Below, piece by piece: positions 2,851 through 43,900 of a DNA stretch of 64,000 nt. Position 1 is the stretch's first letter, and each line of letters opens with the position of its first letter. The translations under genes and the position numbers were made by a program. The notes beneath the pieces were generated by a model. It was not told where the DNA came from. It did no database searches and saw nothing but the letters and a program-made list of their open reading frames with translations. Source of the DNA: Bolinopsis microptera (taxonomy: Eukaryota; Ctenophora; Tentaculata; Lobata; Bolinopsidae); the NCBI RefSeq assembly GCF_026151205.1, contig NC_087076.1:2689902-2753901 (forward strand), read 5' to 3'.

Positions 2851-2898
2851 ATCACGTCGTGACCCCCACTGTCGGTATACATAAACTCCGTATACATC

Positions 2899-3624
2899 AT
2901 GACACGGTCCTCCCAGGCATGGTATCAGCATAGTATAGGATCAGGAGACTCAGTTCCACCATCCAGTCAGCTCCCTGTGCAAACAGGCCGGTATTCCATC
3001 ACACTCAGAACCATAAGCAAGCAGTTCAAACGTAGCACTGTGATACTTGGAGACTCAAACACAAAGAACATCAAGTTTGGGTCTGGAACAGGTACTATGG
3101 GTCAATCCTTCCCTGGTATGCGAGCCAAAGCTAGCAAGATCAGCAACATTGACCCGTCACTGTGCATAGGATACAGCAATGCTGTTATTGTGTGTGGGAC
3201 GAATGATCTCCGGACTGAGAACTTGAAATCTCCTAACGATGTTCATCAACTCGTGGATATTCTCCACTTGAAGCTACAACAGATCCAGACTATATGCCCT
3301 CGTATTAAGATATTTGTTACCGCTGTGTTGCCTTCGCGATTTCCCCGCATGAACATGAACATCATCATGTTCAACAGACTTGTCTATGATATGCTTGAGT
3401 CAAGCTTCGAGCAAAGCGTGTGGCAGATCGGTGTCTATCACTTCGTTGATAACAAAGGTCTGCTTGCCATGAACTTGACCAGAGATGGGGATGAGATACA
3501 TCTTGGCAACCGCGGTCTATCTAAGTTTGTGAGATGTGTTAAACATTGGGTGTATGTGCGTGAGAAACTTGAGAGAACTAGACAGAGGAAACCTGGTCAG
3601 ACAGTGGGATATGATCCCACTTGA
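2899..3624 (+). CDS. LINE ORF1: SGNH/GDSL esterase-like protein
   Basis: A 241-residue protein. Residues 48-54 (VILGDSN) carry block I of the SGNH hydrolase fold, with Ser53 as the likely nucleophile. GTND at 100-103 gives the block III Asn. A D-x-x-x-H stretch near the C-terminus (GDEIHLGNRG) supplies the likely catalytic His. The role of esterase domains in CR1-like ORF1 proteins is not settled; lipid or membrane interaction and RNP assembly are the usual suggestions. There is no coiled coil or zinc knuckle. The stop TGA is followed five bases later by the ORF2 ATG, so ORF2 is probably made by reinitiation or a similar coupled mechanism (inference). Confidence 0.85.
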   Translation: MTRSSQAWYQHSIGSGDSVPPSSQLPVQTGRYSITLRTISKQFKRSTVILGDSNTKNIKFGSGTGTMGQSFPGMRAKASKISNIDPSLCIGYSNAVIVCGTNDLRTENLKSPNDVHQLVDILHLKLQQIQTICPRIKIFVTAVLPSRFPRMNMNIIMFNRLVYDMLESSFEQSVWQIGVYHFVDNKGLLAMNLTRDGDEIHLGNRGLSKFVRCVKHWVYVREKLERTRQRKPGQTVGYDPT

Positions 3625-3629
3625 TCAAA

Positions 3630-6600
3630 ATGAACTTGAAAATCAATAAGGAGGTGTGCTATCCGTGCAGTAAGTCGATTAATATTGGGCAACCTATGCT
3701 TGAATGTGAAAACTGCACCAAAGTTATCCATACTAGATGTTTTAAATCTGCTAGTTTTAAGTGCAAGAATGGCCTATGGATGTGCCCAGAATGTGCACTT
3801 ATCACAGAGGATAGGTACTGCCCCTTTGACAATCAAAAAGATCTCGAAAAGTCGGACAGGCCCTACAATGAGGGTGCAGAAGACACCCTCATCCAAAAAT
3901 TTTGTCATACCCTCGAGAGCTGTAAACGTTATTCCAAACGTGAATTCACAGAAGTAGCTACAAAAATCAGCAGTGGTGATGGGTCCTTCCTCTCAGCACT
4001 GTTCCTCAACATTGATGGCAATGTCAGTAATTTCGATACATTCCAAGTTGAACTCAAACGGTTATCTCATCCATTTGATGTTCTTGGACTTGCTGAAACC
4101 AACGTTGGTAGTAGCTTACAAGAATTATACCAGATCCCATCTTACACCAGTTTTTATCAAAATACCCTCCCAGATAAGAAAAAGGGCACTGGGGTTGCGC
4201 TTTATGTCTCAGACAACCTTAACACTGTTGTCCTAGAAAAGTTATCCTACTGTACTGTAAACATTGAATGCTTATTCGCCGAAATCACTGATAGCACTGG
4301 TGTTGGGGTTGTCTACGGAGTTGTATACCGTCCCCCTAGTGGCTGCCTTGAGGCTTTTTGTGAAACTTTACAAACCATTGCTAAGCAGATATCCGGCAAG
4401 CCCTTTCGTTTGCTTGGCGACTTTAACTCAGACCTCTTCAAAGTTTCGTCACACAACCAGTTATTTGAAGACACTATAATTAGTAATGGTTTGTATCCAT
4501 CCATCTCAATTGCTACCCACTTCCGGCCTAACTGTAAAAACTCGTGTATAGATAACATCCTAGTTAGTGATATTGATAATGTTTTGCTCTCTGGTGTACT
4601 TCAGGATAGATTAAGTGAACACACGTTCATATTCTCCTTCACCTCAACCCCGGCCCCAAGAAATAAGAACAATGAAAAACATGTCCGCTACTACGACTAC
4701 TCCAGTGCCAAGCTTAAAAATTTTGTTTCTGACCTTGAGGTGAAGGTGAATCAGCTGTCCCAATCTTCAGATTTTTGCGAATTTGTCGATTGCTTCACAT
4801 CCACCCTTGACAAGCACTGTAAATTAGAAGTACCGAAAACGACCAAAAGAACACCAAAGCTTAATCCTTGGATTACAGATGGAATCATCCTCTCAATCGA
4901 CAGAAAACATGAGCTTTGTAAAGAATGGTCAGATACAGTAACAAATAAAGATCCATCTGGCAATGTCCTTCTTTATAAGATATTTAGTGACTATCGTAGG
5001 ATGCTTAAGGGTATCATAAAGGCAGCCAAACGCTCCTATTACTGTAACGAAATCTATAAAAACATTGAAAGCAGTAAGAAAACTTGGCAGATAATAAATG
5101 AGCTTAGGGGCAAAAGAAAGAAAACAACCAAACCACCTTTTATCATCAATAATGAAAGAATCTTGAACCGGAGAGCAATTGCCAATGGTTTTAATTCCTG
5201 GTTCGTATCAATTGCTCCCAAGCTCAATGAAACTATCACAACTGACTTGTCTTCTGGTATTCCAATTCTCCCCATGAAAACATTCCATGACTTCCTTAGC
5301 CCTAGTAACTCTCGATCTATTATGTTAGAGGACAGCACTCCTGAGGAGGTTCTAAGAATAATCAAAGAATTCGAGAATGGAAAGGCCAGTGATATTCCCA
5401 TAACCGTTATTAAAACTTCGTCCCACGTTATTGCACCAATTATCAGCAGATACTTAAACAAACTTATGTCAAATGGTATATTCCCTGATATACTTAAGAC
5501 TGGCAGAATCACACCCGTATTCAAAAAAGGTAATCCAGAAGAAATAGAAAACTACCGTCCTATATCCACCTTGTCCATATTTGGCAAAATATTTGAGAAA
5601 ATCATATATTCTAGGATTTATTCGTTTGTCAGCTCTCAGGGAATAATATCTAAGACTCAGTTTGGTTTCAGGCAATCGCACTCAACCTCCCATGCAGTAA
5701 ACTACTCTGTTGACCTCATATCTAAGCACATCAAATTGAAGCACCATGTGTTAGGCATATTCATCGACCTCAGCAAAGCTTTCGATACTATAGATCACTC
5801 AACATTACTTACCAAACTAGAAAGGTATGGCATCCGTGGCGTGGCAAACGATCTGATCAAGAGCTACCTAACTAATCGATTCCAGTACACTGATGTTGTA
5901 GGAGAAAAGTCCGACCTACTTCCAATAAAATTTGGGGTTCCCCAGGGGTCAATTCTCGGACCCCTTTTATTCCTACTTTACATAAATGATATCTCTAATA
6001 GCTCTAGCTTGGGATCGTTTGTCACCTTTGCGGATGACACCAACATATTTGTTGTTGGTAAAACTGCACAAGAAGCATATGAACGCAGCAACGCCCTACT
6101 TTCAAACCTTCAAACATACATGCGGGCTAACAAGCTTCACATAAACATGTCAAAATGCTGCTACATTCACTTTAGACCTAAGTCACGTACTGAAGCAAAC
6201 GTTGAAGAAGAATTCATAATGAATATAGACAACTACCCCATCAAAAGAGTAACGTCAGCTAGATTTTTAGGAGTCGTCATTGACGAAAATCTAACATGGG
6301 AAGAACATATAATAGCCCTAAAACGAAAGCTTAACCATGCCACCTCAACTCTGTGTCGTCTACGCTGCTCCCTCCCAGAATTTCTCCACAGACAGTTATA
6401 CTACACTCTTTTTGAATCCCATCTGTCGTACTGCATATCAGCATGGGGTGGGGCAGCTAAAAATCGTATAAGCTCAATATTCACTGCACAGAAGTACTGT
6501 CTGAGGGTCTTGTTTGGTGATAGAGCAGCCTACCTGGATAAATTCAAAACGTGTGTTCGAACCAGACCATTTACTGACCAGAAACTTGATAGTAAATTTT

Positions 6601-6980
6601 ATAAAAAGGAGCACACTAAACCTCTGTTTAAAAACAACGAGATACTCACTGTACAAAATCTTTATACTTACCATAGCTACATAGAATTATTCAAGATCAT
6701 GAAGTTTTCTACTCCTATGTCTATGTACGAAGAGTATTCTCGTTCTTCCAGGAAACCAATGCTTATTATCAATAAACCGGATCCCCCAGACAACCATAAC
6801 ACGAGGTCAACGAAAATATGGAATATAATAACCCCTAACCTTAAAATCTTTGATTGTTCTGTTAGTATTTCTTGCCTGAAATCCAAACTGAAATCTTCAC
6901 TACTTTCCAACCAGCATTGTCATGCCGTGTATGACTGGACAAATAAAGACTTTGATATATGTAACCTTAAATTTTCGTAG
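3630..6980 (+). CDS. LINE ORF2: PHD finger, AP-type endonuclease and reverse transcriptase
   Basis: About 1116 residues from ATG 3630. Domains in order: a PHD finger (Cys10, Cys13, Cys26, Cys29, His34, Cys37, Cys52, Cys55, with Trp50 just before the last pair); an apurinic-type endonuclease (about 120-340) with LAETN, YRPPSG, LLGDFNSD and SEHTF; and a reverse transcriptase (about 620-880) with [50 protein letters not shown] and the catalytic FADD. A C-terminal thumb and connector follow. The protein nicks the target DNA and copies the element RNA there. PHD fingers usually read histone H3 tails, so the finger may steer insertion or chromatin contact (inference). The frame is uninterrupted. 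Confidence 0.93.
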   Translation: MNLKINKEVCYPCSKSINIGQPMLECENCTKVIHTRCFKSASFKCKNGLWMCPECALITEDRYCPFDNQKDLEKSDRPYNEGAEDTLIQKFCHTLESCKRYSKREFTEVATKISSGDGSFLSALFLNIDGNVSNFDTFQVELKRLSHPFDVLGLAETNVGSSLQELYQIPSYTSFYQNTLPDKKKGTGVALYVSDNLNTVVLEKLSYCTVNIECLFAEITDSTGVGVVYGVVYRPPSGCLEAFCETLQTIAKQISGKPFRLLGDFNSDLFKVSSHNQLFEDTIISNGLYPSISIATHFRPNCKNSCIDNILVSDIDNVLLSGVLQDRLSEHTFIFSFTSTPAPRNKNNEKHVRYYDYSSAKLKNFVSDLEVKVNQLSQSSDFCEFVDCFTSTLDKHCKLEVPKTTKRTPKLNPWITDGIILSIDRKHELCKEWSDTVTNKDPSGNVLLYKIFSDYRRMLKGIIKAAKRSYYCNEIYKNIESSKKTWQIINELRGKRKKTTKPPFIINNERILNRRAIANGFNSWFVSIAPKLNETITTDLSSGIPILPMKTFHDFLSPSNSRSIMLEDSTPEEVLRIIKEFENGKASDIPITVIKTSSHVIAPIISRYLNKLMSNGIFPDILKTGRITPVFKKGNPEEIENYRPISTLSIFGKIFEKIIYSRIYSFVSSQGIISKTQFGFRQSHSTSHAVNYSVDLISKHIKLKHHVLGIFIDLSKAFDTIDHSTLLTKLERYGIRGVANDLIKSYLTNRFQYTDVVGEKSDLLPIKFGVPQGSILGPLLFLLYINDISNSSSLGSFVTFADDTNIFVVGKTAQEAYERSNALLSNLQTYMRANKLHINMSKCCYIHFRPKSRTEANVEEEFIMNIDNYPIKRVTSARFLGVVIDENLTWEEHIIALKRKLNHATSTLCRLRCSLPEFLHRQLYYTLFESHLSYCISAWGGAAKNRISSIFTAQKYCLRVLFGDRAAYLDKFKTCVRTRPFTDQKLDSKFYKKEHTKPLFKNNEILTVQNLYTYHSYIELFKIMKFSTPMSMYEEYSRSSRKPMLIINKPDPPDNHNTRSTKIWNIITPNLKIFDCSVSISCLKSKLKSSLLSNQHCHAVYDWTNKDFDICNLKFS

Positions 6981-14369: not shown

Positions 14370-15785
14370 TTATTTTAAGATTTTGTGCGATGAGCCTGTC
14401 TCGCCATCTCGCATGAATCTTGACCTGGGCACTAGATTCTCTTCTCCTCCGAAAGCATAAACTTTGTCAGTTTCAGTATCGATCTTCATCTTCATCTTTT
14501 TCATGGACTCTCTAGACAGTAACAGAGGAATATCATTTTCCACAATAAACACGTTTAAAGTTACTTTCTGACCACATATTGTTACTGGGAGTGCTTTTTG
14601 TATCCTGGCTGTAACTGCATCTCCATCCCCGAAACAAAAATTCTTCTCACAAGGAGTCACTTTGACCTCTTCATGTTCAGCTGATGTGAGAGATTCCTCG
14701 AAGACTGTCAGCCATTTCTTTCCACACACTGTGGAGCTAGCACCTGTATCTAAAAGTGCTTTATTTGTCGCTTCTCCCATAAGGTACGTGATACACTTGT
14801 TTTCATCTTTTAGTTTAAAGTCAGACTCAAAGAATGTAAGCTTCTTCTCTCCAAATGTGTTGTACTTACAGTCTCTCATCATATGGTCTGTTTCCTTACA
14901 AATATGACAACGTAAGGGTCCTGATTGTTGGGCTTGTGCTCCTCGTCTGGATCTAAATGGAGCTTGTTGATACACGTTTCCTGAACTCTGTCCTTGAAAC
15001 GCAGGTCTTTGTCCGAAGGGTCTTTGTCCGAAAGGTCTCTTAGATGAATAAAAATCCCTGTGTTGGTGGTATCTTTGTTGATAAAAAACTTTCTGAGGGT
15101 CTTCCTCCTGGTTGCTCTGGTCCTCACCAAAATGTTCTGAATTGTTGATGTCGTACTGTTGAAAATAAGTATTTACAGGCTCTTCTTTAATCTTTGGTTT
15201 TCCGATGGAATATGTTTCATCGCTTGCGCCGCTTGCGCTTGATGAAGAAGAAGATGTATTAGTATAATCTTCTCCGTATGCTCTCTTAAGCTGGGATTCC
15301 ATATTCTCGTAGCTTAACTTAGAGACCGTTGCCCTGATTAACGTCTTTTGATGGTCCGAGAGATTAGCATGATGTAATAAGAAGTACGCTAGTACTCCAT
15401 CTTCAAATACCACAGTAGCACCACGCTTCTGCACAAGGCTCTTGTAACGATGGCTAAATTCTCTCACATACTCTTCCATGGGCACTTCCTTGGGTCTTCT
15501 GTAGTTCATGAAGCTGTCAATGGACGTAAAGACTGACTGAGTCTGGTCTTTTTCATATAACTTGTCCAGCTCAGCAATGAGAACATCTATTCCTCCTGCT
15601 TTGGACAATTCTTCCACGTCCAGCTGTATAGCAACAGCTTCTAGTTTTCCAGACATATTCATGATTAATGCAGCTGCTCCTGCCTCAGGCTTGATGGTGG
15701 TCACCTTCTTCCACCACTGAACTCTCCGTTTCCAATCTGTATAGTTGGCCTTCTCATCAAGAACAGGTACTTTATCACCTCCCAT
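14370..15785 (-). CDS. LTR element: Gag with zinc knuckle and aspartic protease
   Basis: A 471-codon frame starting just inside the 5' LTR primer site. It has a capsid-like N-terminal half (NYTDWKRRVQWW, then a region ending in YGEDY), a Gln/Arg-rich linker, a CCHC knuckle (CHICKETDHMMRDCK), and a retropepsin-like active site ALLDTGASSTV. Gag and protease share one frame. It is a fossil or near-fossil component of the element at 9648-16715. Confidence 0.85.
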   Translation of the reverse strand: MGGDKVPVLDEKANYTDWKRRVQWWKKVTTIKPEAGAAALIMNMSGKLEAVAIQLDVEELSKAGGIDVLIAELDKLYEKDQTQSVFTSIDSFMNYRRPKEVPMEEYVREFSHRYKSLVQKRGATVVFEDGVLAYFLLHHANLSDHQKTLIRATVSKLSYENMESQLKRAYGEDYTNTSSSSSSASGASDETYSIGKPKIKEEPVNTYFQQYDINNSEHFGEDQSNQEEDPQKVFYQQRYHQHRDFYSSKRPFGQRPFGQRPAFQGQSSGNVYQQAPFRSRRGAQAQQSGPLRCHICKETDHMMRDCKYNTFGEKKLTFFESDFKLKDENKCITYLMGEATNKALLDTGASSTVCGKKWLTVFEESLTSAEHEEVKVTPCEKNFCFGDGDAVTARIQKALPVTICGQKVTLNVFIVENDIPLLLSRESMKKMKMKIDTETDKVYAFGGEENLVPRSRFMRDGETGSSHKILK

Positions 15786-15881
15786 GATGAAAACTGAAAT
15801 CTAGTGTTAGGTGTTAAGTGTTAGTTAAAATATACAAAAAATAAATACGGTCCGGTGTAACGTCGTTCTTCCTGCTACCAC

Positions 15882-22961: not shown

Positions 22962-25900
22962 GTGAGTTAAAGATAAGAGAAAAATTTACATCAAAATATC
23001 TACCATCACTGGGGGGGGGGGTGTCACGTCCGTCTATGTCCGCTTGTCTCATAGAATCCAAAAAGGACAGGACATAGGCGGACATAGACGGACATAGGCG
23101 GACATAGGCGGACATAGGCGGACATAGACGGACATAGGCGGACATAGGCGGACATTTATGGACACCTAAATTGCTAAATAAAATGTTCAATTTTTGCTGT
23201 TATAGGGGGATCATGTTTTTTGTCCGTTCGGTACCCTATATTTTCAAAACGGACAAAAAATAGAGCGGACAAAAACGGACAAAAATGGAAATAACATTTA
23301 GATGCTTCCTCCTCCTACTCTTCCTCCTCCTCCCCCTGGGTCTTCCTGATCTTCCTCAGTCCTCTTCCTCCTCCCCTCCTCAGTCCTCCTCCTACTCCTC
23401 CTCCTCGTCCTCAGTCCTCCTCATCAGTCCTCAACAGTCCTCCTCCTCCCCAGTCCTCCTCCTCCTCCTGAGTCCTCCTCCTGGGTCCTCCTCCTGGGTC
23501 CTCCTCCTCCTCTTCATCCTCCTCCTCTTCCTCCTCAGTCCTCAGTCCTCCTCCTCATCCTTCTCCTCAGTCCTCCATCCTCCTCCTCAGTCCTCCCCCA
23601 GTCCCCCTCCTCCTCCTCCTATTCAGTCCTCCTCCTCCTCCTTCTCAGTCCTCCTCAGTCCTCCTCCTCCTCCTTCTCAGTCCTCCTCAGTCCTCCTCCT
23701 CCTCCTCTTCCCTCTCAGTCATCCTCCTCAGCCATCCTCCTCAGTCCTCCTCCTCCTGGGTCCTCCTCCTCCTCTTCATCCTCCTCCTCTTCCTACTCGG
23801 TCCTCAGTCCTCCTCCCCCTGGGTCCTCCTCCTCATCCTTCTCATCAGTCCTCCTCCTCCCCAGTCCTCTCCCAGTCCCCCTCCTCCTCCTCCTCCTATT
23901 CAGTCCTCCTCCTCCTCCTCCTCAGTTCTCCTTAGTCCTCCTTCTCATTTCTCCTAAGTCCTCCTCCTGAGTCCTCCTCCTCTTCCTTCTGAGTCCTCCT
24001 CCTGAGTCCTCCTCCTCCTCCCTCTCAGTCATCCTCCTCAGTCATCCTCCTCAGCCATCCTCCTCAGCCATCCTCCTCAGTACTCCTCAGTCCTCCTCCT
24101 TCTCAGTCATCGTCAGTCCTCCTCCTCAGTCCTCCTCAGTCCTCCTCCTCCTGGGTCCTCCTCCTCCTCCTGGGTCCTCCAGCCTCCTGGGTCTTCCTGA
24201 TCCTCCCCAGTCCTCTTCCTCCTCCCCTCCTCAGTCCTCCTCCTACTCTTCCTCCTCGTCCTCAGTCCTCCTCATCAGTCCTCAACAGTTCTCCTCCTCC
24301 CCAGTCCTCCTCCTCCTCCTGGGGCCTTTTCCTGGGTCCTCCTCCTGGGGCCTTTTCCTGGGTCCTCCTCCTGGGTCCTCCTTCTCCTGCTCAGTCCTTC
24401 TCCTCCTCAGTCCTCTTCTTCCTCTTCCTCCTCCTCCTCCCTCTCAGCCATCCTCCTCAGCCATCCTCTTCAGCCATCCTCCTCAGCCATCCTCCTCAGT
24501 CCTCCTCCTTCTCAGTCCTCGTCAGTCGTCCTCCTGAGTCCTCCTCCTCCTCAGTCATCCTCCTGAGTTCTCCTCCTCCTCCTCCTCCTCCTCCTAGGTC
24601 CTCCTTCTGGGTCCTCCTCCTCCTCCTCCTCCTGGGTCTTCCTGATCCTTCTCCTCCCTCTCAGTCATCCTCCTCAGCCATCCTCCTCAGCCATCCTTCT
24701 CAGCCATCCTCCTCAGTCCTCCTCAGTCCTCCTCCTCCTCCTGGGTCCTCCTCCTCCTCCTCCTCCTGGGTCCTCCAGCCTCCTGGGTCTTCCTGATCCT
24801 CCCCAGTCCTCTTCCTCCTCCCCTCCTCAGTCCTCCTCCTACTCTTCCTCCTCGTCCTCAGTCCTCCTCATCAGTCCTCAACAGTTCTCCTCCTCCCCAG
24901 TCCTCCTCCTCCTCCTGGGGCCTTTTCCTGGGTCCTCCTTCTGGGTCCTCCTCCTCCTGGGTCCTCCTCCTCCTGGGTCCTCCTCCTCCTGGGTCCTCCT
25001 TCTCCTGCTCAGTCCTTCTCCTCCTCCTCCTCAGTCCTCTTCTTCCTCTTCCTCCTCCTCCTCCCTCTCAGCCATCCTCCTCAGCCATCCTCTTCAGCCA
25101 TCCCCCTCAGCCATCCTCCTCAGTCCTCCTCCTTCTCAGTCCTCGTCAGTCCTCCTCCTGAGTCCTTTTCCTCCTCAGTCATCCTCCTGAGTTCTCCTCC
25201 TCCTCCTCCTCCTCCTCCTCCTAGGTCCTCCTTCTGGGTCCTCCTCCTCCTCCTCCTCCTGGGTTTTCCTGATCCTTCTCCTCCCTCTCAGTCATCCTCC
25301 TCAGTCATCCTCCTCAGCCATCCTCCTCAGCCATCCTTCTCAGCCATCCTCCTCAGTCCTCCTCAGTCCTCCTCCTCCTCCTGGGTCCTCCTCCTCCTCC
25401 TCCTCCTGGGTCCTCCAGCCTCCTGGGTCTTCCTGATCCTCCCCAGTCCTCTTCCTCCTCCCCTCCTCAGTCCTCCTCCTACTCTTCCTCCTCGTCCTCA
25501 GTCCTCCTCATCAGTCCTCAACAGTTCTCCTCCTCCCCAGTCCTCCTCCTCCTCCTGGGGCCTTTTCCTGGGTCCTCCTCCTGGGTCCTCCTCCTCCTGG
25601 GTCCTCCTTCTCCTCCTCAGTCCTTCTCCTCCTCCTCCTCAGTCCTCTTCTTCCTCTTCCTCCTCCTCCTCCCTCTCAGCCATCCTCCTCAGCCATCCTC
25701 TTCAGCCATCCTCCTCAGCCATCCTCCTCAGTCCTCCTCCTTCTCAGTCCTCGTCAGTCCTCCTCCTGAGTCCTCCTCCTCCTCAGTCATCCTCCTGAAA
25801 TCTCCTCCTCCTCCTCCTCCTCTTCCTCCTAGGTCCTCCTTCTGGGTCCTCCTCCTCCTCCTGGGTCTTCCTGATCCTTCTCCTCCCTCTCAGTCATCCT

Positions 25901-28900
25901 CCTCAGTCATCCTCCTCAGCCATCCTCCTGAGCCATCCTTCTCAGCCATCCTCCTCAGTCCTCCTCAGTCCTCCTCCTCCTCCTGGGTCCTCCTCCTCCT
26001 CCTGGGTCCTCCAGCCTCCTGGGTCTTCCTGATCCTCCCCAGTCCTCTTCCTCCTCCCCTCCTCAGTCCTCCTCCTACTCTTCCTCCTCGTCCTCAGTCC
26101 TCCTCATCAGTCCTCAACAGTTCTCCTCCTCCCCAGTCCTCCTCCTCCTCCTGGGGCCTTTTCCTGGGTCCTCCTCCTGGGTCCTCCTCCTCCTGGGTCC
26201 TCCTTCTCCTCCTCAGTCCTTCTCCTCCTCCTCCTCAGTCCTCTTCTTCCTCTTCCTCCTCCTCCTCCCTCTCAGCCATCCTCCTCAGCCATCCTCCTCA
26301 GCCATCCTCCTCAGTCCTCCTCCTTCTCAGTCCTCCTCAGTCCTCCTCCTGAGTCATCCTCTTCCTGAGTCATCCTCCTCCTGAGTCATCCTCCTCAGTT
26401 CTCCTCCTCCTCCTCCTCCTCCTAGGTCCTCCTTCTGGGTCCTCCTCCTCCTCCTCCTCCTGGGTCTTCCTGATCCTTCTCCTCCCTCTCAGTCATCCTC
26501 CTCAGTCATCCTCCTCAGTCATCCTCCTCAGCCATCCTACTCAGCCATCCTTCTCAGCCATCCTCCTCAGTACTCTTCAGTACTCTTCAGTACTCTTCAG
26601 TCCTCAAAATGTTTGTCTGCTAATGTCCACCAATGTCCGCTAATGTCCATCCAAGTCCGCCAATGTCCGTCCGGGTCCGCCAATGTCCGTCCGAGTCCGC
26701 CAATGTCCGTCCGAGTCCGCCAATGTCCGTCCGAGTCCGCCAATGTCCGTCCGTGTCCGCCAATGTCCCAAAAAACACGTCCGTTGTCTCATAGAATCCA
26801 AAAAGGACAGGACATAGGCGGACATAGACGGACATGACACCCCCCCATCACTTTTTGAATTTGTTACGAGTTGTACGAAATATGTTTTGGTCGCTATCAA
26901 TTAATTATCTCCCCAATTATCTCCCTGGTACATCCCTCAGTTTCTGTGTGACAGGAGTAACATGCTGAGCAACATGATTCTCAGAGACATTGTGTTCCGA
27001 TCCCGGACAGTCAACAAGAACATCTGTGAGCAGTATGACAGTATCGTGACTAGGATCACTACCATCCCTGATAGTACTGAGGATCTGGTTGCCTTGATGA
27101 AGTTCCTGGAGAAGTTAGAGTTGAAGGAACTTCAGGATCTTAAGGTGAGATATACTCGATACAGAACAGGAATGCAGGGTGGTAGTTTTAGTGAACAATC
27201 AATTGTATATCTAACAGATTTGAGTGGGGTGGACTGAAAAATGTCCTTTGATTTCATTGAATGTCCAAATTTAGAGTTGATAAAGCTGCTAGAAAATGTT
27301 ATGTAATACATGTACATCATATTCATTGCGCGGCTAATACATGTTATCATTTAACTTGGCAAACCTTGTTCAGTTCAACCTGTTATTGAGATGACATGAG
27401 TATCAATATTGAGCACAGTTATACTTTTATTTTTATTTCACACTATTAATGAACTTATTGTTACACATGTACAAGTAAGCCTAAAGCACCCTCACTCTAA
27501 TTCAACTCTAACCTTAGAGTTTTGCTTTAGTGGTCTGGCTTCTTGGATACTGTTAACTTATTAAGGGATTTTACTGCAATGTGATAAATAAACGGAATTA
27601 CACAACATAAAACTTTATTAATTCCTCAGAATCAACTGATCCCAGCTGCAGAGAACCTCATGTTTCTGCTTGATTACGCGACACTACCAGAGGAGGATAT
27701 CAAACTAAATGATACGACCTTCTCGTGGCCGGACAGGATACTGCCAATCATTAGTTACAGTGAAATGAGACTCAGAAAGAAGAACGAACAGGTACGAACA
27801 AGTACCAGGTACCAGGTACCAGGCCAGACCCTCCTCAAGTGGGGCGGCATTGTCATCGACAAACATCAAAGTTGATATATTCGTGCCATTCTCCAACAGT
27901 TAATTCAAATACCGACCTCTGAAAATAATCCCAGGCAACAGATAACTTATCCGGCTGGAAGAAGGAGTTCCAGGAGAGAGTTAACAAAGCTGTGGAAGAT
28001 ACTGACGCCTTCAGAACCAAGGACAGGCTAACAGAGGCTCCTACTTATGTAGAGCAGCTGAAGGAGCTGGGAGAGAGGCTGGCTGCGTATGCTACTGAGC
28101 GAGATACTATCAACAGAGAGGAGGTACGAACTAATATCATCTTCATTACAAATACACGTCATGACTGGTTAAAGTGACTTATTTCATCATTATGTAGTAA
28201 ACTGTAAAGTAGACTGTTTTATCAATAAAACTATTTGTCCAGGAGCTGCTGGAGGTACCCGAACCCACGCAATACCCTCAAATAGCAGAGAGCATGTTGA
28301 TGAAGGAGCCATTTGATAAGCTGTGGAACACTGCTGTAAGGTTCCAAGAGCGGTATGATACTTGGACTAAGGGACCCATTCTGGGACTCAATGCTGAGGA
28401 GGTCGCCGAGGAGGTGAGGGTTTTGATTTAAGTAATATTTAAGTAATATTTCATTAAATTTCCTGATCTGAAGTACAGGATAGTGGAGACTCCGACTATC
28501 TGATAGTGATATATATGACACTAAGATATTTAACCCACTTTAATCTAAACCATGAATATAAAACATGATTTCTTGTGATATCTTTAACAGCTCTGGAAGC
28601 ACTTATCTCTTATCAATAAATATATCAATAAATATATCAATATATTGATAATATCAAATAAATAATATCTCTGATTATATAATTATGTACTTATTATTTG
28701 TATCTACTAAACACTACACAGGTGGGTAACCTATGGAGAGTCATGTACAAATTAGTGCGTTCTTTCACCGACCTCCCTGGACCAATGAGAGTTGCTACAA
28801 CAGTTAAAAACAGACTGGATAAGTTCAAACTTCACCTGCCACTCTTGGCAACTCTGTGTAATCCTGGTCTCAGAACCAGACATTGGACTACCATGTGCGA

Positions 28901-34900: not shown

Positions 34901-37900
34901 GATTTGACGCTGGATCCCTCCTGCGCTATCTTCATCACCATGAATCCTGGTTACGCCGGACGTTCTGAACTGCCTGACAATCTCAAGGTCCTGTTTAGAA
35001 CTGTGGCTATGATGGTTCCTGACTACGCCCTTATCGGCGAGATCGTGTTGTACTCGATGGGATTTGTGGATGCTCGTGCGCTGGCTCACAAGATTGTGGC
35101 TGTGTACAAACTGTGTTCTGAGCAGTTGTCTTCTCAGCACCATTACGATTACGGCATGAGGGCTGTTAAGAGTGTGCTTACTGCTGCTGGAAATCTTAAA
35201 CTCAAATTCCCTGATGTAAGATTTTGAAAGCACTTTTCATAGAATTTGGCATACGGGTATATGGCCCCCAGAATATAGGTGGCCCCCAAAATATAGGTCA
35301 TGTTAGTGGATACAGTTCTAACCAAGATAAGCGATACTAATGGGATCTGTTACTGCTAGGTTGGAGTAAAACATGTAACTTATGTTTCTGGATAAAAATT
35401 TTGGACCTACATGAGGTATTTTGGTATACTTGGTCATGACAGCGAAAGATTTAAACGATGTTGTCATTTTCTAGAGGGGTAAATATGGCGAAAAATTGTC
35501 ATGACAAAAATCTGTCCAACACATGCCATTAAGACTACTGGTATGAGTATAAGTATTATTTTAAGCTATCTTTTCATCGAGACATCTGCAAACTGACAAT
35601 TTGGAAAAAAGTTATGGCCACCACAATTTTACGGGCCCCCAGAATATAGGTCTATACGACCCCCAGAATATAGGTTGGTCAAAAACCCTGAACATGCCCA
35701 AAACCATGCTTTGGGATGCTCTACTTGTAGCTACTAGTCTCCTGAACCCACATATCAAGTTTTATCAAAATTGGATAAAAATTGGCCGAGTTATGGGATA
35801 AAAACAAAAACCATATGCCCATATTTGGGCATACGCACCGAATTTGATCGATTTTGGTCCATAAATTGGTCAAATATCAATATTTTTGAATGAAACCAAC
35901 TTTATATGGAAGGTAAGCATATATTACACATTCTCTATGATTATCAGCTCAATATCTACCTAACTGTGGATTCTGTGTTCAAATAATCGCAAAAAATGAA
36001 CAAAATCGCCCATATCTCAAACTGACTTCGCTCAAAACAATAGAACTCAATAGGGTTTCAATATTTTCACATGAAATTTTCAGAATCAACGTAGAATTGT
36101 CTCATGACCTTAAGTTTTGGGACAGAATTTTGAGTTAGGCCTTTAAAAAAATTTGGCGGCCAAAAATGTCTGATTTACAGTCATTGAGGTGCACATTGTA
36201 TTGATACAGATAAAAACAGCCCCCCTCAATCATATCTAGGGACACTCCTTCAATCTTATTTAAGTATTTAGTTAAGATCCCTACTAAATGAGTGCATGAA
36301 AGCTTTTTAACAAGTAAAATTAAAGATTTTACTCATTACGGGTATATGGCCCCCAGAATATAGGTTTAAAAAAAAAAATAGCGACCAAGATTCTGCATTT
36401 TCTCTGTCACCCTGAGCATTAAGGAATGTGGGGTAGTGATGAGAAACAGTTAAAGAACATATGCTGAAGAGATGGCATCATCAAAATGTATGAAGGTGGA
36501 GTATTTGAGGACGATTTTTGCATACCTATATTCTGGGGGCCGTAGTTTTTGATTTTTTGCTATTTAGTATACTCTAAACCATTTCAATTTAGTATCTGGA
36601 GCCATTGGCATCATCAATACAGTCTCAGCAACATATTCTGACTGCATATAACTTTTTTTTTTATTTTTTTTTTTTTATTAAATACTTTTCAAATTTTACA
36701 GAGTACAGCAATAGATGAATATAAAATAGAATCGTTCAAAATATCGCCCCCATCTGTAAAATATGATGGGCACCCAAACACGGTAAACACATAGTGAACT
36801 ATGTCCGCAGTAACTTGGACCCATTACATCGAATTAATCTAAATCCAAAAATTTATGAAAAACTATTTAAGAACAAACAAATCCATGGTGAATAACTGTG
36901 GATATAGAGTCAAAATTGGTATTTCAATACGTCAAATTCCAGATACATTAGATACAGGTCTGAAATGGTCATTAATGTGTGAGAAGGTGTGCGGGTGAAG
37001 TGTGATATGATGTTGAAAGTATAGGAAGGTAGATAAAAAAAATTAATAAAACAAAAATAATAATAATATGGGGAGCAAAGAGACTAGGCTAGACTGTTGT
37101 TTCACTATCCAATAAACATTTCCATAGATGCTTAGTGACCTCAGCTTTGAAAAGACTAGTAGACACAATCTGTCTTACCTGTAAAGGGAGTCCATTCCAC
37201 AGTATATGGGTTCTGTAGAAAAATGATTTTGCCAGTGGGCTATTTGAGGTACATGTGGTGTGTGAATTCTGACTTAACTTAGGTAAAATTGATGACACAA
37301 TAGACAGACTGTCGAGGTGGCAACGTCTTAGTCGAGAAGTGCCCTGATATAGAGAGAGATAGTGAGGCAGCGATACAGGAATTAAATTGTTAAGAACTTT
37401 GTGGAAAAAAATAAGATCATTCAAGTCAAACTTTTGAGACAAAGGGAGAATGTCGACAAGCTTGCACTTTTTGACATATTGCTCAGGTGGATAACTGCGG
37501 CCCTCTTCAGACAGAATCCATTTAATAGCTCTCTTTTGGAGACTTTCTAATTTATCACTAAGTGATTTATTACAAGGGCGCCAGATTATGGAACAATTCT
37601 CGAATTGGCTACGAACCAGGGAGAGGTAAAGCGCCCGGCGACGTTTCTGATCAATGACAATATGGCCATCTCTTCTGACCATACCAAGTTGTTGGCAGGC
37701 CTTAGTATAAATTCTGTCGCACTGACTATTCCAACTTAACTTAGGAGTAACATCGACTCCAAGATCTTTTTCTAACTCTACATACACAAGAGGAGAGCCA
37801 TCAAGATTATATGCGAATGGAGGAGATAAAGATGGTTTTCCTGAAACAATAAGCACTTTACATTTTGCTGGATGGAATCGCATTTTGTTTCTTAGTGCCC

Positions 37901-40900
37901 AGTCAGAGAGATAGTCTATATCCATTTGTAAATTAGTATTATCAGAAGATGAATGTATTTTACGCCAGATTTTTGTATCATCGGCATACAAAACAATATC
38001 AGTATTATCCGAAAGGCCAAGAGGAATATCATTGATAAACAATACAAAAAGTAAGGGACCAAGAATAGAGCCCTGGGGGACACCAGAATTAACTGAGAGG
38101 GTAGATGACATCTCATTACCAATAACCACTCTTTGGTAACGGCCTTGAAGGTAATTGGTAAGAAATTTGAGAAGTGTACCATCAATGTTATATAAGGTCT
38201 TTAGCTTATGAAGAAGGATATCATGATTTACAGAATCAAATGCCTTAGCAAAATCAAAATACACAACATGATTGATAATGTTTTCGTTAAGAGACAATGC
38301 CAGGCTATCACAAAAGTCAACCATATTGGTTGTGCATGACTTGTGCTCTAGAAAACCATGCTGCCTGGGATCAAGAAGGGTACTTGTCAAAGAAAGCAGT
38401 TTACGTTTAACAATGCGCTCAAAAACTTTCATGACTAAACAAGTAAGGGATATTGGTCTATAGTTTTCAACCTCACTTTTCTTACCTTTCTTAAATATTG
38501 GGACAACATTTGCAAGTTTCCATTCTTGTGGAATGTAGCCGCTGTTGTAAGATCCACGAAAAATACATGTTAGAGGGTAAGCTAAACCTACGGAACAATT
38601 TTTGAGAATTTTACCGTGTATGCCATCTGGTCCCTGGGCTTTATTTGAATTAATATTTGAAAGAAGCTTACGAACATCCCGATGATCGAAGTCAATATCA
38701 AAATCAACATCATTGACATAGGATATGTCAGTGTCATAAAGTGAAGGATCCGAAAACTGGTTATAAAAGAAAGAATTGATAAGTTCAGCTTGAGCTTTGG
38801 GTTTGAACCGAAGCTGTCCAGAATAACTAACACAATTAGGAATACGGCAAGAGTTAGATTTATACTTAACATGTGACCAAAACTTCTTAGTTATAAGCGC
38901 TGGATCATCACTATTGAAAAGATTGTCTCTTATTTTGGCTGATGAAAGCCTCTTAAAATCTTTACGGCTAGTAACAAACTTTAACTCATCAGAAATAGAA
39001 CCAGAAATTTTAAATTTAGCTCTGAGTCTATCTTTTTTACGGCATGAAGAAAAAAGTTCACTATCGAACCACGGGGGTTGAAACTCTGATTTAATAGTTA
39101 CTTTAGGAATATGTTTATCAACTAAATTCATAATGCAGTCTTTAACTAACTTCCAAGACGAATCAGGATCTAGGCATTCTAGGACTTGCCAATTAATCGA
39201 GCATAATTCACGATTAATCATGTCCCAGTTTGCTTTCTTATAATTATAGATTTTACGTTTAGGAGTTTTCTTGCGGGAAAAGGAGCTTTTAATTGAAAAA
39301 GTGACAGGAAAATGATCAGATTTGCACACGGAATGAGGATCACAGACATTCAAGTTATCGATTGTGTTATCATAATTACTGAGAAGAATGTCTAATGTAT
39401 TACCACTTTTATGGGTGGGTGATGTGATCAACTGGGAGAGAGAAAGATCACTGAAAGAATCTATGAAGGATTGCTCAATAGGTACGGTACTGGATGAAGA
39501 TAGCCAGTCTGTATGGGGGAGATTAAAATCACCAATAACATAGATTTTAGGGGGATTCTTTTTGGAAACTAGCTTGCGAATATAACTAACTATGACATCA
39601 TGATTAGGTAACCCAAGAGTTCCTACTCTATAACAAGTACAGATTACAATACTCTCTTTGTTAGGAAAAGCAATTTTAACGGCCAGCATTTCTGCACCTA
39701 GGCTAACTGGTAGTCGGGTTGTAGTGGCATCGAGATCAGACCGAACAGCCAAAAGAACACCACCTCCATTTTCCCTAAACTTTTTAGGGTTATTAGGATC
39801 TTGAGGATGAGTCTTTCTCGTGCGGTCATTGCGGAAGATTTCATATTGAGAAGAAGGAAAGATTTCGTTGCTAGAAATAGATTTTTTGAGCCAAGTCTCA
39901 TTTAGGGCAATTATGTCAGGCTGCTCTATGTTAGCAAAGGATTGAAGTTCGGAAATCTTATTACCATCAAGAAGGGGATGGGAGGAGCTTAGGTTACTGA
40001 AAGGAATAAGACCTTGGACATTTTGGTAGAGTACAGATAGGGAGTTGGGACCTGGATTAAGCATAGAAGGATTAACAAGAGTTATCAAAAGAAAGTTAAG
40101 AGAGAAAACCCAAAGAATGAATAAAGATACTAGACGCCTGAGGCGGCTGGAATACTTGACTCTATTCATCTTACCAGGGAGAAGAACATTTCTTATAAAC
40201 CATGAGGAGATAATTACAAAGAAAAGTTTGATGTGGGAGCAAGCAAGAAATGGTATAAGATAACGTGGGCTGTCAAGGAGTAGAGAGGAATGAATATTAG
40301 AATCTAGGGGGAATACGGTGTTCATGGACCTAGTCGTGGAGAGAAGAATTGGGAGAAGGTAAGTCATGATGAGAGAATAGAAGAGAAACATATGATTATG
40401 ATAATTGTAGTTGATGTGTGGGGTGCATGGAGAATTAAATGTGTAAATTTTGTTAGGTATAAACGTGTTGATATGTATATGTGCATTTCTTGACTGTGTA
40501 CGAGGCCTTTTGCATGCAAAAAGACCTATTCTAAGTCTAAACGATTCATTGTCTAACATATGGGAAAATGGGCAGTGACCGAATGTACCTGAAATAGGAG
40601 GCATAAAATTGAGAAAAAGATTAAATCAGAGATTTGTTTGAGTTTTAATTTTAGGCGCAACGTCTTAATCAAAATATTAAATGAAAGAAAAGATCAAAGA
40701 TTTAAATTCCCAGAAGATTATTTACAACCCTGTCAAAACTGTGTTCGTTTACAACAAACTTAAGCCAAGTGGACAATAAACCTACTCCTCTCATGTTGAG
40801 ATGAAGCCAATCATGGTATAGAAGTTCATTACAGGATCTAAAGTCTCGAGTTAAAAATTCTGAGAAACAGTCTAAGAACACACAATTATTATTTAGGCAT

Positions 40901-43900
40901 AAGTCTTTAAGTATATTATTAAAATCTAGAACATTCTTTGCTATGTAGGAATATAAACACTTAATAGGAAGACAACATTGGATAATTATAATTGCAGCGG
41001 GAAATAACTGCTTAGTGGTGTCAATCAAGTCATTAAGATACTTCCTAAGGAACTGAACCCCATACTTAGAATGTTTTATGTCATTTGTACCAACACTCAA
41101 TATAATCTTTTCAATATCGTCAGCTTCTGCAGCTGCATGAGTTTTATGAAAATGCTGAATATTTTCAGTGATATCTCTAATTTTTGCACCACTTTGGGAC
41201 ACATTGATTACTTTCCTTCCCCGGAATCCCAACTTATTTGTCCGTACGAATTTTGTCATTGACGTACCAAACAGGACAGTGGTTTTTCTGCTCTTCGGTT
41301 TTCTTGGGGCATTTCGGTAGTAAAGGGTTGGTGTTGAGGTGGTGGTGGGCGGCATAGGAATTGTAGTGAGGACATTCTGCTCCCTGACTACATTTGTATC
41401 TGTCTTCGGTATCTGGCAGCGAAAAGATAAGCTGTACCGAGTCTCCTTAGCTGATCTCTCTGCACGAACCTTGTGAAGACAATATTCCTGACACCCCGGT
41501 TTCATAATATACAAGCTACAGTCCTTTGGGGTGATATGGCATTTACTGTTACATCGCTTATCCCCATTTTCTGGAATTATGTCGAGGGTCCTCTCAGCTC
41601 CAAATGAAACTACATAAATACCTTGCGACTGGTCAAGAGACACCTCGTCGTCGTTGTGGTACCTAGTTGCACAAGAACCAGACTTGTACATGCTTGCTAG
41701 GCATGAGTTTAGCTTGCAGCCAAACTTGGAGTTGATATCATGCATAAGCTCTGATATCCCAGGATAATTTAAAATATCGATTGGCTCCTTAGTCGTGGTG
41801 TGTCCATTTGAGGAAGACCACACATATTCTTCTCCAGTGGAAGTGAGCCACTTTGTGGCAGTTTTCACAGCAGTTTGCTTGGCCATAAGTGTTTCAAGTT
41901 CAGACATCAACGTGCCATGTTGAACACTCTTGTTTTGAACAAAATCTGAATGCAACTCCAAGAAGTCCTCGCATTTAACAGAATCCCTCTTAAGTTTCAT
42001 GACATTCTCAACACTGGCCTTAAGAGCTTTCAGCTCTTTTAATGAAAACGAGTTTAAAACATTGGTAACAGAATTCAGATCCATAGTGAAGGAAAGAGGG
42101 AGGAGAAGATGGCGGTGAGGGAGGAGAAAATGGCGAAGTCAATACTGTAGCCCAGGAAGTAGATGCGTTGCTTAGGATACAAACGGTCACGTCATAGTCT
42201 CTTCTATCGCTTTGACATTGGGACCTAAAATTATTTGTTATATAAAATTGTCTGTGACAATTTTAGAACAACTTAGGAACAGATGTTTGGACCTATATTC
42301 TGGGGGCCCTGTTAAAAAATGGTATTTTTACAGGTGAAAAAAAAGTACACTTAAAAACCTAATAATTATTTTCAACTACCCAAGAAACATTTAAATGGTT
42401 ATCATGTACATATTTACAGCCCTAAACATGCTTAGAAGTAGTTTTAACACCTGTTTCTAAGTGCTCAAAAAACGACCTATATTCTGGGGGCCATATACCC
42501 GTATCGCTATAGCATTATAAACTATTGATCAATTAGACAATTACCAAGGTGCTCCCTATTGGAAATTTCTCTAACCAGGTTACTAAAATCTAACACTCTA
42601 GAATCAGGTATCTGAGGATATTATCATGTTGAGGTCCATCCGGGATGTTAACCTCCCCAAGTTCTTAGCTCATGATCTGCCTCTGTTTGATGGTATTTTG
42701 TCAGGTAAGAACATATTTTAAAGAGAATATATCGTAATTCGGAACTCTAATAACACAAAATAATTTGTGAATTTTTGGGAATTTTAGTAAGAATTTATTT
42801 TATGTAAGAACTGTGACTACTTTCTGTTAACCACAGATTTGTTCCCTGGAGTGACCCTACCAAAGCCGGACTACACAATCTTGTTGGAGAGTTTGCATAT
42901 CAGTCTTGCCAACCTAAAGCTTCAGCCTACTCCGTGGTTTATCGATAAGATTATCCAGGTATCATAAATTAGCCTTCCCACAAGAGACATCACCTCACTC
43001 GGTAAAACTACAAATTACAGAACTACTCTCATTTCACCTGCTCACTCATCTCAAACCAACTCATGGTAAGACATCCCCACATTCTAGATAATTTAAACAG
43101 TTAGTGACCACTATGAAACGAAATACCTTTAAAAAACCATTGTTAATTAATTGGCATTAAATTATCCACCACATAACACATGATAAGCAGTGAAGCAGTG
43201 ATCGAGCTGTATAATTTAAATTTAATAACTTACAATTACCTCCTACACCTAGATCTACGAGATGATGTTAGTGAGGCACGGTTTTATGATAGTCGGAGCT
43301 ACCATGGCTGGAAAAACATCTGCTTATGAAGCTCTGGCTGGAGCTCTCAATGATTTAAATAAGAAAGGACTACTAGAAGAAGAGAAGTGTATACACAAAG
43401 TGATCAACCCCAAATCTGTAACCCTCGGTTAGTTCAATTTATGAGTAGATATATCAACTTATCAAACATCACATTTGCGAAATATGAATTTTGGCCGTTA
43501 CTTTGTATTTAATGTGTTGGTATGACGACCAGATATTATTTCTACTTCCCATTATTAGGACAACTGTACGGAAGCTTTGACCCGGTATCCCACGAGTGGA
43601 CAGACGGTGTCTTGGCGGTCTCCTTCAGAAAGCAAGCCAGTGCCCAGGTGAAAGACCGACAGTGGCTCATATTTGACGGTCCTGTGGATGCTATCTGGAT
43701 TGAGAACATGAACACTGTACTAGGTACGATATAAGCACAAGAATTATAACATTTTATGTACATTTCTGGTGATAGTCGAAATGAAATACAAACAATTGAA
43801 GGAAACATCTTAAAAGCAGAAAAATCAAATGAAAGTTGTATTTATTTAATTTGTTATTTTTCATTTATTCGTAGTAATAACGTTTGGATCTCACTTCAGA

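Follow-up and report, generated by a model that had tools for sequence, protein, structure and literature searches.

An AlkB-type dioxygenase domain joined to an SGNH hydrolase domain in the ORF1 protein of a LINE from Bolinopsis microptera

A stretch of 64,000 nucleotides (nt) from the genome of Bolinopsis microptera (NC_087076.1, positions 2,689,902 to 2,753,901; the window, numbered from its first letter) was analysed. It contained a long interspersed nuclear element (LINE) on the minus strand, the first open reading frame (ORF1) of which encoded an AlkB Fe(II)/2-oxoglutarate (2OG) dioxygenase domain in one frame with an SGNH hydrolase domain. ORF1, its strand and this fusion were as described in the original prediction, which had been made from the sequence without database searches. 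The complete endonuclease-reverse transcriptase ORF2 that had been expected directly downstream was also present; Pfam recognised both its endonuclease (EN) and its reverse transcriptase (RT), and its open frame started 75-76 nt past ORF1 in intact copies. The main parts of the element were as follows.

36653..42244, minus strand: LINE insertion, with ends taken from blastn against 20 own-genome copies
40702..42084, minus strand: ORF1, 460 amino acids (aa), AlkB and SGNH protein
41980..42084, minus strand: ORF1 residues 1-35, predicted helices and possible coiled coil (AlphaFold2 model)
41407..41979, minus strand: AlkB Fe(II)/2OG dioxygenase domain, residues 36-226 (phmmer, profile, AlphaFold2 model and fold match)
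41644..41658, minus strand: H143-N-D145-D-E147, iron ligands and putative base-recognition Glu
41473..41475, minus strand: H204, distal iron ligand
41419..41439, minus strand: R216-YSLSF-R222, 2OG-binding R-x5-R
41290..41406, minus strand: linker, residues 227-265, of low confidence in the model and the most variable part
40741..41289, minus strand: SGNH hydrolase domain, residues 266-448, with S275, G299, N334 and D425-x-x-H428
37089..40625, minus strand: ORF2, 1178 aa from stop to stop, with a hydrophobic N-terminal region, an NPGP motif, EN and RT
39303..39983, minus strand: APE-type endonuclease domain of ORF2
37851..38483, minus strand: reverse transcriptase domain of ORF2

A phmmer search of the PDB sequences with the window ORF1 matched ALKBH3 (E 2.5e-9) and ALKBH2 (E 0.006-0.29). 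The profile of a 72-row alignment, window included, matched ALKBH3 at 2.1e-18, ALKBH2 at 5.6e-16 and, weakly, ALKBH1 (E 0.69-0.98), with no match to ALKBH5 or FTO at E <= 1 in this search. Pfam analysis showed PF13532 at E <= 1e-3 in 54 of the 72 rows and GDSL/SGNH in all 72; the window protein gave a sub-threshold match to 2OG-FeII_Oxy (E 0.0044, 17.8 bits, cut-off 23). In the AlphaFold2 monomer model, helices were predicted at 2-10 and 14-33 (in the numbering of the model, which omits Met1 and so runs one lower), and the predicted fold matched the double-stranded beta-helix of AlkB from ORF1 residue 37 onwards. The AlkB fold proposed in the original prediction was thus borne out, while the extent given there (75-225) was too short. 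A likeness to bacterial AlkB had also been proposed; the protein does belong to the AlkB family, but its closest solved relatives and best fold matches were ALKBH3 and ALKBH2, with E. coli AlkB, ALKBH5 and ALKBH6 ranking lower in the fold lists. The iron ligands H143, D145 (H-x-D) and H204 and the R-x5-R pair R216 and R222 (RYSLSFR) stood exactly where they had been placed. The Glu that follows the iron Asp by two residues, with a putative role in base recognition, was also found in ALKBH3 and in a host ALKBH2-like exon. A chance motif or a misread ORF was ruled out by the phmmer and profile matches, the model and the fold match.

Database searches gave 96 relatives at E <= 1e-3, and residue counts below 96 reflect gaps, mainly in fragments. 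The iron triad was invariant (H143 90/90, D145 90/90, H204 94/94), with six of the 96 relatives gapped at H143/D145 and two at H204. The 2OG arginines were kept in 94/95 (R216, one Leu) and 95/95 (R222), R165 in 92/92 and E147 in 89/90. Only 15 of 454 well-filled columns were invariant, and the Fe triad and R222 were among them. In the 89 best-filled relatives, the AlkB domain had a median pairwise identity of 40% and a minimum of 24%. ORF1 residues 76-230 queried by themselves returned 27 proteins, every one a relative already found, and an AlkB-weighted alignment search returned 121 proteins, with 24 new ids among the 120 matches listed, many of them fragments or SGNH-only. One database protein (P0079, 706 aa) carried two tandem AlkB domains and SGNH, with Cys replacing the Glu in the second AlkB.

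The SGNH domain matched ZfL2-1 ORF1p (PDB 4c1b) at E 1.1e-4 with the window protein alone and 6.8e-13 by profile. Its residues were likewise retained in the relatives (S275 93/95, G299 95/95, N334 94/94, H428 91/91). No Pfam match to an RNA recognition motif (RRM) was found in the element proteins.

The host assembly (264.65 Mb, 232 contigs) contained at least 94 ORF1 matches, a lower bound because 92 of 876 first-look candidates were scored. Searches of viral contigs and genome contigs found no DNA of the relatives, and selection was therefore measured on the window's own-genome copies. Among the 30 best of the 94 matches, five loci without a complete 460-codon frame were left out and 25 copies, window copy included, were used; nonsynonymous (N) and synonymous (S) changes were counted against the majority codon, not via a tree-based codon model. 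The AlkB domain (36-226) had 19 N and 21 S changes, an N/S per site of 0.24 (binomial test against equal rates, p 1.1e-5), and SGNH (266-448) had 27 N and 33 S (0.22; p 7.7e-9). The linker, which serves as an internal neutral-like control, had 20 N and 6 S (1.10; p 0.65), and AlkB differed from it (Fisher p 0.022). For singletons and shared changes, respectively, the ratios were 0.20 and 0.40 in AlkB, 2.01 and 0.67 in the linker, and 0.25 and 0.18 in SGNH. An 11-copy subset gave 0.26 and 0.30 for the whole ORF, and 0.40 and 0.67 for AlkB, from small counts. The AlkB domain is under purifying selection between copies, a point raised in the original prediction, and its catalytic residues did not vary freely: the Fe and 2OG residues were present in 25/25 copies, while G299 of SGNH was Ser in one. 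A neutral passenger domain was ruled out by the near-invariance of the residues and the N/S of AlkB.

Twenty further loci were taken as the next-best ORF1 matches. ORF1 and the 1178-aa ORF2 were intact in 14 of them, as in the window copy; because next-best matches were chosen, this is no estimate for the whole family. ORF2 was shorter or broken in the other six, and no complete ORF1 was found in one of these. The longest match of each of the 20 copies was 97.3-99.8% identical to the window element, so the family is young.

AlkB was also found in other ORFs of the genome. A search with PF13532, in which 150 of 587 candidates were scored, gave at least 151 matches, host ALKBH exons among them. 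All the matches listed but one were stop-free, and most lay within frames of about 370-850 aa. At locus L051, an ORF1 with 32% identity to that of the window carried AlkB (4.8e-16) and SGNH (5.3e-10) and was followed by a 1178-aa ORF2, 47% identical to the window's, with a hydrophobic start. The L052 frame (551-552 aa, one of 18 such among those listed) carried AlkB (1.1e-18) and a weak SGNH match (3.5e-4); downstream lay an open frame with endonuclease matches at 4.9e-5, just under the cut-off. L055, known from its AlkB and SGNH frame alone, scored 1.4e-19 for AlkB and a weak 5.1e-4 for SGNH. A second LINE was noted in the window itself (2863-6980, plus strand). Its ORF1 was SGNH-like (Pfam GDSL at only E 0.03-0.047), with no AlkB signature seen in it, and its ORF2 had a PHD/C1-like zinc finger, EN and RT.

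Helitron_like_N (PF14214) had 41 matches in the genome, and six of them shared an open frame with AlkB, the criteria being contig, strand, position and an identical frame length. These six frames were of 3388, 3366, 3321, 3226, 2459 and 2225 aa. The giant Helitron frames with AlkB before Rep included the following.

C3:14.437-14.444 Mb
C9:15.866-15.873 Mb
C12:2.468-2.474 Mb

At a seventh locus (C12:816-822 kb), AlkB lay about 4 kb upstream of the Helitron frame. Of the SGNH matches (150 of 424 candidates scored), three fell within the shared frames of the six loci, a fourth just upstream of such a frame, and one in the AlkB frame of the seventh. The frame at C12:2.47 Mb (L054), read in order, comprised SGNH (1.4e-7; 32.6 bits against a cut-off of 32.9) and AlkB (1.9e-19), with a Pro/Ala-rich linker between them, and then, after a CxxC...FFR stretch, Helitron_like_N (2.8e-23), which had an HLH motif; the order SGNH-AlkB is the reverse of that in the LINE. 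The iron residues and both arginines were present in all 29 rows compared, L-loci and Helitron included, and the Glu was Cys in one.

A maximum-likelihood tree of 30 AlkB domains, unrooted and with several long branches, was constructed. Twenty-seven rows were taken as transposable element (TE) rows: the window, 19 database relatives, the two P0079 domains, L051, L052, L055, L058 and one Helitron. L058 was so taken although neither a repeat nor SGNH had been seen with it, and RT was unseen beside most database rows, L055 and L058. The cellular-type rows were three only: the host ALKBH2-like exon (named by reading), human ALKBH3 and P0120 (cellular by name). The 27 TE rows fell on one side of a branch and the three cellular-type rows on the other, with support 100/97. 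L052, L055 and L058 were closer to the cellular rows than the window-type rows were (95/83), and constraining the LINE-type rows to one clade was not rejected (p-AU 0.113). Within the limits set by its long branches and small number of cellular references, the tree is compatible with one TE lineage with later exchange, and also with separate captures of AlkB, which remain a reading because L052, L055 and L058 lie nearer to the cellular rows.

With animal ALKBH3 and ALKBH2 the window AlkB shares the fold, HxD...H, R-x5-R and the Glu after the iron Asp; unlike them, it is fused to SGNH and lies across the tree branch. We know of no SGNH partner for the AlkB of plant RNA viruses. In Alphaflexi-, Betaflexi- and Closteroviridae, the parasite itself encodes an AlkB that demethylates RNA in vitro (as cited in PMC9289625); these viruses, unlike the window LINE, are not retroelements. 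According to the same text, Ty3/gypsy elements of the orchid Phalaenopsis are retroelements with their own AlkB enzyme, but there it is ALKBH5-like and encoded by a separate ORF of a long terminal repeat (LTR) element, while in the window it is ALKBH2/3-like and fused within a LINE ORF1. Like the ORF1 of type IV LINEs (zebrafish ZfL2-1), the window ORF1 has SGNH with catalytic residues, N-terminal helices, an EN-RT ORF2 and no RRM match. The ZfL2-1 type is described as a coiled coil plus esterase, and AlkB is unmentioned in the accessible parts of PMC3905857 and PMC4120745; the latter confines esterase ORF1s to two vertebrate groups of CR1 and L2, and neither AlkB nor dioxygenase occurs in the part available. 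SGNH (texim) genes are linked to Helitrons in fish (PMC4021074), where the available text does not mention AlkB; here, SGNH and AlkB are in one frame with the Helitron Rep. At the level of titles and abstract openings, with Repbase and most subscription literature outside reach, no report of AlkB in a LINE or Helitron was found. The AlkB-bearing form is for that reason taken as new, esterase-type ORF1s being known.

The interpretation in the original prediction, that the enzyme could clear methyl lesions or erase host marks, was supported overall. There is, in our judgement, about an even chance that this is a young, active-looking SGNH-type LINE whose ORF1 protein (ORF1p) gained a complete ALKBH2/3-like AlkB that would demethylate the single strands of the element. 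Single strands are exposed to lesions of the 1-methyladenine (m1A) and 3-methylcytosine (m3C) type, which block copying, and Helitrons and LINEs share a single-stranded intermediate. The kinship to ALKBH2/3, together with the presence of AlkB in LINEs, Helitrons and plant RNA viruses, points to clearing of this type. ORF1p would be held on the ribonucleoprotein of the element, perhaps at membranes through SGNH, and its AlkB would oxidatively demethylate m1A- and m3C-type lesions of the Watson-Crick face in the single-stranded nucleic acid of the element, the RNA template in the LINE and single-stranded DNA in the Helitron case, so that copying would not be blocked. In ZfL2-1 the SGNH domain is hydrolytically active and binds acidic phospholipids (PMC3905857), and this lipid binding would fit, with the hydrophobic ORF2 start in the window and L051, a membrane-linked cycle.

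Several points weigh against this proposal. The window protein alone had no PF13532 match at E <= 1 in Pfam, and the SGNH scores in L052, L055 and the Helitron read were below the Pfam cut-off. The AlkB changes common to at least two copies, which gave the ratio of 0.40, were few (6 N, 4 S). The Asn of N-x-Y helps hold 2OG in other AlkBs; that position was Ser in 55, Thr in 16 and Asn in 4 of 90 relatives (the Tyr position was Y in 69 and F in 11 of 90). Kinship alone also does not determine the substrate, because AlkB enzymes include N6-methyladenosine (m6A) and tRNA demethylases, and AlkB is not needed by LINEs generally, because SGNH ORF1s without it have been described and one is probably present in the window.

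Removal of a host mark that restrains the element, m6A on its RNA or N6-methyldeoxyadenosine (m6dA) on its DNA, is rather unlikely but still a live rival, since the AlkB of orchid Ty3/gypsy elements has m6A demethylase activity in vitro (PMC9289625); loss of mouse Alkbh1 also raised N6-mA at the 5' ends of young L1s (PMC4982230). By sequence, however, the domain resembles ALKBH2/3 and not ALKBH5, FTO or ALKBH1, and for L1, mobility is held down by ALKBH5, an m6A eraser (PMC7873242), the opposite of a gain for the element; these statements follow the accessible parts of the three papers. It is improbable that the AlkB fold is mainly a nucleic-acid-binding module in an RRM-less ORF1, with catalysis secondary. 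AlkB domains do bind nucleic acid, and the available text of PMC3905857 gives esterase-type ORF1s as lacking structural RNA-binding domains, but binding alone would not call for the iron and 2OG residues, and these persist even where the pairwise identity of the AlkB domain drops to 24% (median 40%). We give equally little weight to a hydroxylase or demethylase acting on another target, such as a host protein, tRNA or host defence RNA: the substrates of 2OG dioxygenases and ALKBH proteins are diverse, but the nearest solved relatives act on DNA or RNA bases, and the Glu that follows the iron Asp is conserved. Chance capture of a functionless host gene fragment is hardly credible; retroelements do pick up host exons, but the 96 relatives, near-invariant residues, purifying selection and many intact copies stand against it.

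The usual view is that retroelements depend on the host to repair their nucleic acid. An ALKBH2/3-like demethylase that is under purifying selection and encoded by a LINE and by Helitrons would mean that base methylation, whether damage or mark, genuinely impedes transposition in animals, and the idea would become testable with catalytic mutants. The finding also gives the AlkB family a TE branch and brings a natural two-enzyme ORF1 into an ORF1 class of poorly understood function. We regard it as plausible, at somewhat below even chance, that AlkB and SGNH form a shared accessory module, in which a TE-specialised lineage of AlkB demethylases was perhaps acquired once and later passed between LINE lineages and rolling-circle Helitrons, the dioxygenase protecting single-stranded intermediates and SGNH giving membrane or acyl chemistry. 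An enzymatic kit for repair or counter-defence would then be common to class I and class II elements in the same animal.

The LINE had four further features.

42085..42244, minus strand: short 5' untranslated region (UTR)
42096-42135, minus strand: 21-bp direct repeat of the 5' UTR; it carries two CGCCATyTT motifs
40047..40058, minus strand: NPGP motif of ORF2, without D-x-E, after the hydrophobic stretch and just before EN
36653-36676, minus strand: A-rich 3' tail, read from the sequence

The CGCCATyTT motifs are presumably akin to the YY1 sites of L1 promoters, and NPGP, with D-x-E absent, is a candidate likeness to the core of 2A-like recoding peptides. The position of NPGP after the hydrophobic stretch and before EN was common to the ORF2s of the window and L051. 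Against the PDB, the ORF2 RT matched RTs of R2 type and of L1, an entry named only "RNA-directed DNA polymerase", and RTs of bacterial, retron or group II type; these matches did not resolve its clade.

In blastn, the match started exactly at 42244 in 13 of 20 copies, and the body terminated in the A-rich tail; among the 17 copies whose flanks were examined, target-site duplications were not evident by eye. Ten of the 17 extended about 24 nt further at the 5' end, which makes the window copy slightly short there. L037, L044 and L048 had a common 5' leader unlike that of these ten, and the family may therefore have two 5' end types. Exon-like open frames of a plus-strand gene, dynein-like by reading, lie on both sides of the LINE, which apparently occupies one of its introns. 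The short repeat ACCTATATTCTGGGGGCC or its complement was found on both flanks (35262-36545 and 42291-42495), and the LINE seems to lie within another repeat.

Elsewhere in the window, an open frame at 14370-15800 (minus strand) with a CCHC knuckle and a protease-like DTG looked, by eye, like the gag-type ORF of an LTR retrotransposon. A long Ser/Pro/Leu-rich low-complexity stretch at 23264-26837 (plus strand), open in several frames, was a simple-sequence expansion.

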